From contig WFQC01000034.1 in NCBI GenBank assembly GCA_015487235.1, positions 1 to 62,295 on the forward strand: a stretch of 62,295 bases of DNA, given 5' to 3'. The notes below the pieces were generated by a model. It did no database searches and was not told the DNA's origin. It worked only from the letters and a program-made list of their open reading frames with translations. The number at the start of each line of letters is the position of its first letter. The stretch's first letter is position 1. Below, piece after piece: positions 19,465 to 52,578 of the stretch. A program made the position numbers and the translations under genes. This DNA comes from Alteromonadaceae bacterium. Its GTDB lineage: Bacteria > Pseudomonadota > Gammaproteobacteria > Enterobacterales > Alteromonadaceae.

Positions 19465-19488
19465 AGAGCGTGTTGACCTTTTGAGTGT
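19465..19488. repeat. Degenerate end of the AGGGCGTGT repeat family
   Basis: The bases AGAGCGTGTTGACCTTTTGA (19465-19484) and four more match about 20 of 24 positions of the right end of the element at 51332-51597. No second arm is visible, so it may be a decayed remnant or chance similarity. Confidence 0.35.
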
Positions 19489-25538: not shown

Positions 25539-25570
25539 GATCATTTACTTAATAGAATCGCTATTAATGG

Positions 25571-25667
25571 TATTTTCTTTAAAAGGGAGCAACAAGAAGC
25601 AGGACGCTTTTCGGTGAACCCAAACAAAATGTTGCAAAAATATACTCCAAAGATAAACACGCCTTAA
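25571..25667 (-). repeat. Internally deleted copy of the AGGGCGTGT MITE
   Basis: Read on the minus strand it begins AAGGCGTGTTTATCTTTGGA, matching the left end of the element at 51332. It continues through GTTGCAAC-like sequence, then jumps to the internal block (GGGTTCACCGAAAAGCGTCC and onwards) found at about 51468-51510. About 110 bp present in the full copy are missing, and the far end has decayed. Confidence 0.65.
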
Positions 25668-31666: not shown

Positions 31667-32009
31667 ATAACTTTCCCCAAAGTTTTATTGTTGATGAGAT
31701 AAAGCTATCTCTGTTTTTAGGCGTGTTTATCTTTCGAGTTTGAATTTTGTTCAACCTAAACACGCCCTATTATAACGCTCCCTGTTTTTTAAGTTTAATA
31801 TAACTATTTCTATAGCAGCTTTTTTATTGACTTTTATGTTGAAATTTCACAATAAGTTGTAATAAATCATTACCTGCTAATTTTCTTGATATTGAAAGTG
31901 AGCAAAGCGAAAATAGGTAATGTATCACTCACATATTTATTTTATTAACTGTAGCACTTTGTCAATTAGTTGCTAGTTGATATAAATCAATTTTTTATAT
32001 TTTTACTGC
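31667..32009. other. Intergenic region upstream of the Aer-like gene, with a mini-repeat
   Basis: This 343-bp gap lies between the diguanylate cyclase stop and the MCP start, both on the minus strand. It holds the MCP promoter region, a 50-bp member of the AGGGCGTGT repeat family (31719-31768), and A+T-rich sequence with no open frame. A loose inverted repeat around 31871-31921 (ATTACCTG and AGGTAAT arms) may form a weak terminator for the cyclase gene. Confidence 0.5.
31719..31768. repeat. 50-bp mini-copy of the AGGGCGTGT repeat, hairpin-forming
   Basis: The ends GGCGTGTTTA (31720-31729) and TAAACACGCC (31757-31766) are a perfect 10-bp inverted repeat. The interior TCTTTCGAGTTTGAATTTTG (31730-31749) is identical to the inner part of the right end of the 51332-51597 element. 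It therefore looks like two termini of that element fused after a large internal deletion. Confidence 0.65.
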
Positions 32010-49978: not shown

Positions 49979-51253
49979 ATGGCGAAGATTGTCGTGATGG
50001 GCGCAGGCACAGGTGGAATGCCTGCGGCTTATGAAATTAAAGAAATGCTAGGAAAAGATCATCAAGTTGTGGTGATTAATGAAAGACCCGATTTTCGTTT
50101 TGTACCTTCAAACCCGTGGGTTGCTGTTGGTTGGCGAGAACCTGCGGCTATTTCGTTTCCCATTGAAAAATATTTAAATAAAAAGAATATTGATTTTATT
50201 TGCGCGCGAGTAACAGAAATCAAAGCTAATGATAATCAATTAGTCACAGAAGATGGTCAAGTCGTTGATTATGATTTTCTAGTGATTGCTACAGGACCAA
50301 AACTTGCTTTTGAGAATGTTCCTGGTTCAGGTCCAGAAGGTTTTACTCAGTCAGTTTGTACGTTAGACCATGCCAGTAAGTGTTTTGAAAGTTTTGAAGA
50401 ATTAGTTGAAAATCCAGGCCCTGCTGTGGTGGGCTCTTTTCAAGGAGCAAGCTGTTTTGGCCCTGCTTATGAATATGCTTTCATTCTTGATAAGGCACTT
50501 AGAGACGAGAAAAAGCGTGATAAAATTCCACTCACTTTTGTGACGTCAGAACCCTACATTGGTCAACTTGGTTTAGGTGGTGTAGGCGACTCAAAATCAA
50601 TGTTAGAGTCAGAGCTTCGCCAACGAGACATCAAGTGGATTTGTAATGCGCGAGTTGACAAAATTGAAGATGGAAAAATGTATGTGAGTGAACTCAATCG
50701 TAAAGGTGAGGTTGAATTTGAGCATGAGTTACCTTTTAAACATTCTATGTTTATTCCTCCTTTTGCTGGTGTCGATGCGGTAGCGAATGTTGAAGGGCTT
50801 TGTAACCCAAAAGGCTTTGTTATCACTGATGAACACCAACGTTCACCGAAATATCCTAATATATTTTCAGGTGGTGTTTGTGTTGCGCTACCTCCTGTTG
50901 AAGATACTCCTGTACCAACAGGAACGCCTAAAACAGGCTATATGATCGAAACGATGATGACGGCCATTGCTCATAATATTAAAGCGTGTTTAGCTGGTGA
51001 AGAGCCAACAGCGAAAGGTACTTATCATGCTATTTGTTTAGCTGATATGGGTGATACTGGCGCGGCTTTTGTTGCAATGCCACAAATTCCACCAAGAAAT
51101 GTTGCTTGGTTTAAACAAGGTAAGTGGGTGCATTTAGCCAAAATTGCCTTTGAGAAGTATTTTATGCGCAAAATGAAAACGGGTAATAGTGAGCCTGTTT
51201 TCGAAAAATATGTACTTAAAGCTTTAGGTATTGAACGTTTAGATAAAGACTAA
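49979..51253 (+). CDS. sqr: Sulfide:quinone oxidoreductase (type I, Acidithiobacillus-like)
   Basis: A 424-residue FAD-linked membrane-associated flavoprotein. The FAD motif GAGTGGMPAAYE is at 8-19 and ATGPKLAFENVPG at 104-116. Cys127 (SVCTLDHA), Cys159 (GASCFGPAYEY) and Cys353 (AICLADMG) correspond to the three redox cysteines 128, 160 and 356 of Acidithiobacillus SQR. The C-terminal amphipathic helices (HLAKIAFEKYFMRKMKTG) fit membrane attachment. It oxidises sulfide to polysulfide or persulfide and reduces the quinone pool. AGAGGAAA precedes the ATG. It diverges from fisR; no persulfide dioxygenase gene is next to it. Confidence 0.93.
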   Translation: MAKIVVMGAGTGGMPAAYEIKEMLGKDHQVVVINERPDFRFVPSNPWVAVGWREPAAISFPIEKYLNKKNIDFICARVTEIKANDNQLVTEDGQVVDYDFLVIATGPKLAFENVPGSGPEGFTQSVCTLDHASKCFESFEELVENPGPAVVGSFQGASCFGPAYEYAFILDKALRDEKKRDKIPLTFVTSEPYIGQLGLGGVGDSKSMLESELRQRDIKWICNARVDKIEDGKMYVSELNRKGEVEFEHELPFKHSMFIPPFAGVDAVANVEGLCNPKGFVITDEHQRSPKYPNIFSGGVCVALPPVEDTPVPTGTPKTGYMIETMMTAIAHNIKACLAGEEPTAKGTYHAICLADMGDTGAAFVAMPQIPPRNVAWFKQGKWVHLAKIAFEKYFMRKMKTGNSEPVFEKYVLKALGIERLDKD

Positions 51254-51331
51254 TACCAAGCCTATTAAGTAAATGATCTAAAATTTGCGCAGGAAAAATA
51301 ATGCTCGCAAGTCTAAATTGCCCATAGTTTT

Positions 51332-51597
51332 AGGGCGTGTCTATCTTTGGAGTATGTTTTTGCAACAGTTTGTTTGGTATTTATACAAGGCGGAGTCTGT
51401 GTGGTGTGGTTATTCCACACGAGTAGGCGACAACGTAGTAGAGATGACAAACAAACGTTGCCCTTCGGGTTCACCGAAAAGCGTCCTGCTTCTTGTTGCT
51501 CCTTTTTTTAAGGGAATAACCCTTAATACAAAGAAGCGCCGCGATCAGAACGCTTTTAGATTGAACAAAATTCAAACTCGAAAGATCAACACGCCCT
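51332..51597. mobile_element. MITE-like element, 266 bp, AGGGCGTGT terminal inverted repeats
   Basis: The left end (51332 onward) reads AGGGCGTGTCTATCTTTGGA. The right end on the opposite strand reads AGGGCGTGTTGATCTTTCGA. The arms stay alike over about 30 bp (further GTnTG and TTTTGnnC). A deleted inverted copy is at 25571-25667, and a 50-bp fused-ends copy at 31719-31768. There is no transposase coding; internal palindromes are present (GTGTGGT-TATT-CCACAC near 51401-51420). Repetition at three loci with variable internal deletion is typical of non-autonomous elements. Confidence 0.8.
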
Positions 51598-51617
51598 ATG
51601 ATTATGGGCGTTTTTTT
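51591..51617 (+). terminator. Terminator formed at the right end of the MITE
   Basis: ACGCCC (51591-51596), the last bases of the element, pairs with GGGCGT (51606-51611) in the flanking DNA, followed by a T-run to 51618. It could end the sqr transcript if transcription passes through the element. Confidence 0.6.
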
Positions 51618-51684
51618 TACTTTATTTGCAAAGCTAAAAATTTCTCAGTAGGATGGTGCAGGTCTTATTCCAAGAGAAATTTAC

Positions 51685-52578
51685 ATGGAAGTTAAAAAGT
51701 TAACCCTTTCTTCCCATCGTTTGCGCAATATATTTCAACTGCAGAAAGTTATTACACTTAATCATTTAATTTACGCTTTGGTTTGTATTGTACTTGTATC
51801 TGCTTATTGGTTTTATATTGCTCACGCTAAACATGAAATGGATCAGCATAGTGAACAGTATATTTACACGCCTCAAGTAGGTGATTTTTATTTTTTAGAT
51901 TTTCAGTTAATAACCGAGAATTTACGCCCGAATGAGAAATTTCGTTTAGCTAAAGTTGTTGATGTAACGGGCGATATTGTTACCTTGCTTTATAGTGACT
52001 TTTTTTATTCACAAAAAGTGCAAATAGAAAGAGCCATTAAATACGGGCATCTGCGCTATCATGACTATTTTCAGGGAAAACGTTATGATTTTTCCAAACA
52101 AACGCTGGTAACCATGTATAACGATAAGGTTATTTATAGGGTAGAGCGAGCTGTTAATCAGAAATTGTTTGGTTACCTTATTAGCCCTGAAAATATTGAG
52201 TTTCGTCGAGAGCCCTTGTTTGTGCTTGGTAAGAAAGAATACTTAGCGGGTATTGATTTGCTGCGTAATCGTTACCTTGAAGTGAACTTATCGCAGGCTT
52301 TTGAGCAACTTTTGGCTTCAGCTACCTTGGGCTACCCTCAAGGACAGGTTGCTCTTGCAGAGCTTTATCTTAATAATGATTTTATCGATAAAAACCTTGA
52401 ACAGAGCTTATACTGGTTATTACAAGCGTCTTTACAAAGTCATAAGCCCGCGATATTAAAATATATTATTGTTTGTAAGCAAGTAGCTAATTGTCACGAA
52501 TACGACTTTTATCAAACCTTATTAACGGCTGGTGTTAATCTAAAAGTTAAGCATGTCGATGTGAAGTTAAGGCATTAA
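51685..52578 (+). CDS. Membrane-anchored hypothetical protein with Sel1/TPR-like C-terminus
   Basis: A 297-residue protein not assigned to a named family. Residues about 27-47 form one hydrophobic helix (LIYALVCIVLVSAYWFYIAHA). A mixed alpha/beta region follows (about 58-195), beginning YIYTPQVGDFYFLDF, which reads like a small beta-rich domain. A helical stretch about 206-262 (AFEQLLASATLGYPQGQVAL and ALAELYLNNDFIDKNLEQSL) resembles a Sel1 or TPR repeat pair used in protein contacts. AAGAGAAA precedes the ATG. It stands alone between the MITE and the convergent lysR gene. Confidence 0.75.
   Translation: MEVKKLTLSSHRLRNIFQLQKVITLNHLIYALVCIVLVSAYWFYIAHAKHEMDQHSEQYIYTPQVGDFYFLDFQLITENLRPNEKFRLAKVVDVTGDIVTLLYSDFFYSQKVQIERAIKYGHLRYHDYFQGKRYDFSKQTLVTMYNDKVIYRVERAVNQKLFGYLISPENIEFRREPLFVLGKKEYLAGIDLLRNRYLEVNLSQAFEQLLASATLGYPQGQVALAELYLNNDFIDKNLEQSLYWLLQASLQSHKPAILKYIIVCKQVANCHEYDFYQTLLTAGVNLKVKHVDVKLRH

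Follow-up and report, generated by a model that had tools for sequence, protein, structure and literature searches.

Two inverted hairpin arms form the interior of a small mobile element, probably an IS5-family MITE, in Alteromonadaceae and related bacteria

The interiors of bacterial MITEs are often regarded as what is left of a transposase gene, and the consensus of ERIC, one of the small bacterial repeats, is 127 bp long. In PMC2229807, ERIC, NEMIS/Correia and RUP are described as small palindromic elements bordered by TA. Judged by that description, the element reported here resembles them in its size range (100-300 bp), its TA termini and its ability to fold, and differs from them, from ERIC by description, in having two separate inverted arms with a common core; RUP is linked there to IS630, whereas the present element is linked to IS5 (PMC2229807). 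The CIR repeats of Caulobacter and Brucella, likewise compared by description, also consist of two arms and a linker, but the same source gives them without terminal inverted repeats (PMC2229807). REP/REPIN elements with RAYT share the two inverted hairpins, but the present element differs from them in its TA duplication, its IS5 ends and the lack of a Y1 gene in three genomes that bear copies. Insertion sequences (IS) of the ISSod6/ISSpu10 group have the same type of ends, TAGGGnnTGTTGATCTTT, with the variants GGGCGTG, GGGTCTG and GGGCCTG found in both, and are also bordered by TA, but they measure about 880 bp with a transposase, whereas the element has 264 bp and none. We did not meet the element in the literature searched, including the available parts of PMC3189936, PMC4853749, PMC10969869 and PMC2229807, but it may have been described before; the ends of MITEPsy2, as given in the available part of PMC3189936, differ from its ends. 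A MITE with IS5-family ends is the ordinary part of this locus, whereas a bilateral hairpin interior that is kept by compensatory change is not ordinary. The shape of this interior survives sequence change across a class, and the direction of that change speaks for a single-stranded form. Should spread depend on the arms, they would add to IS5 MITEs a second layer of recognition that can be tested; if they act in RNA, they would be a widespread structure at the 3' ends of genes, and one that is absent from Rfam 15.

The window, a stretch of 62,295 nucleotides of an Alteromonadaceae bacterium (contig WFQC01000034.1), was originally predicted to hold one full copy of a repeat, one inverted copy with an internal deletion, one copy with fused ends and one decayed end. 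All four are present (Table 1), with some corrections. The full copy, which has terminal inverted repeats of 16 bp each, measures 264 bp and not 266 bp, since the predicted span (51332-51597) takes in one base of each flanking TA. The inverted copy, placed at 25571-25667 and thought to lack about 110 bp, is more damaged, with about 87 bp of arm A and the final 70 bp missing relative to the query. The fused copy (predicted at 31719-31768) shows similarity to the right end plus the tip of the left end, and the decayed end (predicted at 19465-19488) is a lone end. Within the window, the end pattern had 7 matches at up to three mismatches against 2.3 expected, and 2 of 100 shuffles reached 7; the window by itself is weak evidence for a repeat family. 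A chance origin of the matches is ruled out by the genome-wide counts, since in the source genome (a 3.07 Mb draft) a similarity search with the 270-bp query gave 55 matches, and the end pattern, with up to three mismatches allowed, occurred 65 times, against 3 times for a reversed control pattern. Searching with the ends, as had been suggested, thus revealed further copies, and a genome-wide family exists; the very high abundance that had been proposed was not found, with 14 matches of the arm model R1 and 65 end matches. Identity is 94-98% across at least 177 bp in the best eight of the other copies, and many further copies are one-ended or internally deleted. Short copies (the fused copy of the window, L053, L055 and L058) have retained both ends, of which one is 2 bases short in L055, and have lost the arms. 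The predicted progressive internal deletion is therefore borne out in the sense that deletions take away the hairpin arms. The deleted and fused copies appear to have arisen through loss of arms and, to judge from the few junctions read, probably no longer multiply. In the region 51320-51620, the full-length element lies in the loop of an apparent intrinsic terminator of the upstream gene, with GCCCATA ahead of it and, on the far side, TATGGGC and then a run of T; as the element folds on itself, the two terminator halves may still meet.

Table 1. Positions of the element, its parts and its further copies in the window.
Feature	Position	Strand	Remarks
Full-length element, 264 bp	51333..51596	+	TA at 51331-51332 and 51597-51598
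Left terminal inverted repeat GGGCGTGTCTATCTTT	51333..51348	+	alignable with IS5-family left ends
Arm A hairpin, core CAAGGC ... GTTATTC ... AACG	51363..51460	+	R1 match 51359-51473, E 9.2e-34
Small CCCTTCGGG hairpin between the arms	51461..51469	.	consensus columns 133-142
Arm B, same kind of core, own stem	51476..51558	-	consensus structure
Right terminal inverted repeat GGGCGTGTTGATCTTT	51581..51596	-	alignable with IS5-family right ends
Deleted copy	25562..25666	-	query 1-47 fused to 134-198; right end gone
48-bp fused copy, both ends, no arms	31720..31767	+	TA at 31718-31719 and 31768-31769
Lone end GAGCGTGTTGACCTTTTGAGT, preceded by TA	19466..19486	+	1 mismatch to the 21-base end pattern

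The mode of insertion could be read from the chromids of Pseudoalteromonas sp. NC201 and P. piscicida 2515, which are similar and differ in their insertions. Among eight comparisons of occupied and empty sites on these two chromids, five two-arm cases (L235, L245, L258, L260 and L262) show TA duplicated around the element. The pair L260/L255 is perfect, with tttctat-TA-[GGGCCTG...CAGGCCC]-TA-ggcgat in the occupied and tttctat-TA-ggcgat in the empty site, while the four other cases have TA on both sides and in the empty site, and one to about five flanking bases that differ. Of the remaining comparisons, L240 has the borders AA and TG, no clean junction could be read for L332/L362, and the single-arm pair L323/L362 is consistent with TA, with one base ambiguous. 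Where P. shioyasakiensis SDCH90 has an element, strain CF6-2 has an end stub of 18 bases, and no TA borders were seen at this locus (L066). Insertion at TA with duplication of TA is thus shown on relatives of the window element. Many of the 102 elements found in relatives (L067-L184) start within a few bases of an upstream stop codon. As TA followed by GGG recreates TAG, an insertion at a stop codon can, as far as the letters tell, leave the protein unchanged.

An insertion sequence with the same ends, which the original prediction had named as a possible supplier of transposase, does exist in relatives, where it carries a transposase of the IS5 family. In genome G431, a fragment of a DDE_Tnp_1 transposase lies directly behind TAGGGCGTGTTGATCTTT. 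The 126-aa transposase fragment matched NCBIfam transpos_IS5_3 at 105.9 bits, under the whole-protein cut-off of 110, and its plasmid relatives are annotated as IS5 family in the 40 of 1989 records that were listed, ISSod6 and ISSpu10 being among them. Six plasmid IS loci have paired ends of the element's type that lie about 880 bp from each other. Of 30 IS loci in species genomes, which come from 11 genomes and include many identical copies, 26 agree with the 18-base end consensus in at least 14 positions at each end; in the remaining four, one end falls under this cut, in one case by a single position. The IS loci are bordered by TA, which refers to the borders only, the duplication relative to an empty site having been seen for the element. 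Both the IS and arm-bearing elements occur on the HL-AS1 chromid. By alignment, the ends of the element are shown to be of the type found in autonomous IS5 elements of the ISSod6/ISSpu10 group, and a transposase of this group would move the element in trans. The element itself occurs in several interspersed copies and has no transposase gene inside, as is expected of a MITE. Most of its carriers are now without a close copy of the IS, since a search at E 1e-50 or better detected one in only 11 of 147 family genomes, compared to arms in 104 of the 147. At the same threshold the source genome gave no close IS copy, none of its six DDE_Tnp_1 loci has such an end, and genome G199, with its 42 exact ends, gave no match to DDE_Tnp_1. 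The arm model had no match in the six IS loci searched, which speaks against an origin of the element by simple internal deletion of the IS and leaves its mobilisation by the IS unaffected. Four end pairs 500-6000 bp apart were present in the loci searched, two of them in the source genome; by reading, no transposase was seen in the two pairs with listed ORFs, and one pair turned out to be two separate elements. A recurrent neighbouring gene as mobiliser was rejected, as only small clusters were obtained (the largest of 6).

The consensus of 28 aligned full-length elements consists of an outer stem formed from the ends, arm A, a CCCnnnGGG hairpin and arm B. The arms share their core in opposite orientation, and model R1, which was built on arm A, detects arm B on the opposite strand in relatives. 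Compensatory change on both sides was found in 50 of 89 pairs, compared to 13-19 when the structure was slid. Likewise, 96.1% of the paired cells were able to pair, against 36.5-44.1% after sliding by 1-3 columns, and the covariation score was 0.334, against 0.052-0.086 for slid and 0.137 for shuffled alignments. None of 500 shuffles attained the observed pairing values. Relatedness of the sequences may inflate the shuffle control, and a structure derived from the consensus may inflate the slide control, but the size of the difference makes it unlikely that such inflation fully explains the covariation. Compensatory changes have thus preserved the pairing in the arms. Parts of the core, among them CAAGGC and AACGC, are nearly constant. 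The element has a strong RNA fold (z -8.2) and a DNA fold with z -6.9. Rfam 15 had no match in the window at gathering scores, and the sole match in seven loci (E 0.54, to a human lncRNA family) lies outside the element. The interior of the element is not transposase debris but two hairpin arms.

The strand on which the arms are kept was approached through G.T and A.C mismatches, counted at the 62 Watson-Crick pairs predicted on both strands in 48 of 75 sequences (less than 96% identity). On the + strand, the ratio of G.T to A.C was 30 to 9 in arm A and 5 to 34 in arm B; as arm B has its core on the minus strand, wobble is favoured in each arm on the strand that bears the core. When counted by pairs, the contrast is modest (11 vs 5 in arm A, 2 vs 8 in arm B). 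The outer stem had 3 G.T and 4 A.C, and six short-range pairs had 0 and 2. The class-level arms (92 of 103, in a symmetric alignment of the lower stem and read in core orientation) had 71 G.T and 37 A.C mismatches, with 20 genomes favouring the G.T excess, 5 against it and 5 tied, while 32 class-level outer stems had 22 and 16. A model-fitted alignment of 58 of the 103 class-level arms, from which those more than 85% alike were removed and which leans towards RNA pairing, gave 80 G.T and 15 A.C. The single-arm family described below had 58 G.T and 69 A.C, along with many other mismatches. The direction of the wobble mismatches suggests that the arms are kept as single-stranded structures. Altogether, we consider it probable that the element is a non-autonomous IS5-family transposon (a MITE) that is moved in trans and whose interior is an inverted pair of hairpin arms kept single-stranded. 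In the most likely reading, the arms would form hairpins in DNA whenever replication or transposition exposes a strand, and this folding would help the element to multiply or to be tolerated. The next most likely reading is that the arms would fold in transcripts.

The position of the elements relative to gene ends bears on both readings. In relatives, elements are located at gene 3' ends, and none of 102 elements in 118 loci lies inside an ORF of at least 80 aa. Their neighbours are convergent in 31 cases, co-directional in 42 and divergent in 8, and one neighbour is missing in 21. The strand of the two-arm elements relative to co-directional genes shows no preference (22 vs 20). Weaker arm matches in chromids are mostly elements of about 165 bp that have the ends ATACCAATT and hold a single arm, whose core is the same (for example L243, L249 and L323-L358); these represent a second mobile element, probably with a TA target. 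In the single-arm sample (43 of 48 matches read, including two-arm remnants and orthologues in two strains), the neighbours relative to the arm were antisense in 16 cases, convergent in 14, sense in 9, divergent in 3 and incomplete in 1; with 9 sense and 16 antisense among the co-directional neighbours, no sense requirement of single arms is seen. One might tentatively regard the arm as a free-standing mobile hairpin module, bound as a single strand by a putative factor of the host or the element, which MITEs with unrelated ends (GGGC in the two-arm and ATACC in the single-arm element) would have taken up in Gammaproteobacteria as well as in one or more further classes of the phylum, and which would confer success on a non-autonomous element in either orientation.

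An action in RNA, in which the first arm met would fold and protect or process the 3' end of the mRNA, or bind a protein, is a possibility that we rate somewhat below even chances. The wobble tolerance in core orientation and the strong RNA fold are in its favour, as is the presence, on the - strand of the element, of two terminator-like sites, against 0.7 expected in the stretch; moreover, the arms face outward, so that a transcript coming from either side would first encounter an arm in the correct orientation. The location at gene 3' ends, with 31 convergent against 8 divergent cases, also fits, but the same is expected from selection against hits in genes and promoters. In addition, the element folds as DNA too, the single-arm sample is without sense bias, and no promoter-like site was found in 51200-51750, though only 0.9 are expected there. 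As regards the transcript hairpins of the original prediction, the wobble pattern does suggest hairpins of a single strand, but neither a strand preference nor a sense bias accompanies it. This absence of orientation bias (22 vs 20; 9 vs 16) makes a role at the DNA level at least as likely as one in mRNA.

Template switching is known to correct quasi-palindromes, and the complementarity of the arms could be maintained by switching between the arms of a palindrome rather than by selection, the interior being a hitch-hiker in an ordinary MITE. The outer stem, which is without wobble bias (3:4 and 22:16), would agree with this. However, such a process predicts equal numbers of G.T and A.C, whereas the arms deviate in opposite directions (30:9 and 5:34), 20 of the 25 untied genomes lean the same way, and the CAAGGC and AACGC positions of the core are nearly constant, and we regard this explanation as unlikely. 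A MITE of an IS630/Tc1-mariner element of the RUP type, as the TA duplication might suggest, is rejected as very improbable and largely refuted by the matching IS5 ends, because DDE_3 was found in 9 of 59 family genomes but not in the source genome or in genome G001 with its 23 arm matches, and the end motif was present at none of 15 DDE_3 loci. Equally improbable, and rejected as well, is a REPIN-like element whose hairpin arms are recognised by a Y1 (RAYT) transposase: the two inverted hairpins resemble a REP doublet, the single-strand signature would fit and Y1_Tnp occurs in 11 of 14 genomes searched, but it was not found in the source genome, G431 and G475, all of which hold copies, none of 20 Y1 loci had an arm match, and the TA duplication and IS5 ends are against it.

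As for the distribution of the IS5-type MITE, blastn found the element at 67-77% identity in 13 chromid and plasmid records (7 of Pseudoalteromonas, 4 of Vibrio and 2 of Catenovulum), 11 of which cover at least 80% of the query, and had no match in phage records. A pattern scan of species genomes yielded at least 118 stretches carrying the element. The 80 stretches listed belong to Pseudoalteromonas, Vibrio, Shewanella, Colwellia, Thalassotalea, Litorilituus, Rheinheimera, Motilimonas and Catenovulum, as well as to unplaced Alteromonadaceae and Vibrionales genomes and a record labelled Endozoicomonas. At E 0.001, in samples that overlap near the source genome and with stricter filters that lose weak matches, R1 matched in 104 of 147 genomes of the family, 142 of 394 of the order, 47 of 369 of the class (44 of the 47 outside the order) and 60 of 398 of the phylum (24 outside the class, of which 23 are in one family). 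R1 matches occupied both strands in 18 of 20 class-level loci, and in 16 of the 18 the match on each strand reached E 1e-9 or better. The class-level elements have the ends TAGGGCCTGTTAACAC, and in L200-L202 the arms are present without GGGC ends. In L193 and L290, the arm core is largely kept although the sequence of the stem is wholly different and GC-rich.

In the 80 listed loci, a script delimited 81 elements, 62 of which have a recognisable right end. The lengths of the latter are 266-270 bp (37 elements), 314-317 bp (14), 362-363 bp (3) and 409 bp (1), the other 7 being within 191-283 bp, so that the clusters are separated by steps of about 47 bp. Inserts of about 47 bp (L067, L069, L116, L124, L141 and others) are located at the AAC bulge of the arm core, and their orientation to the core is identical in arm A and arm B. 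They contain two small hairpins, and their opposite strand resembles ACATGGATGT and GCAGGA; we do not claim that they are CsrA decoys, as the GGA loops lie opposite the strand of the arm core. In genome G431, 125 exact matches to the end pattern were present, many of them about 58-77 bases from contig starts, and its assembly seems to break at the repeat. The record labelled Endozoicomonas sp. G2_1 has several copies (L076, L079, L083 and L118) that resemble Alteromonadales forms, and this label may deserve a check.
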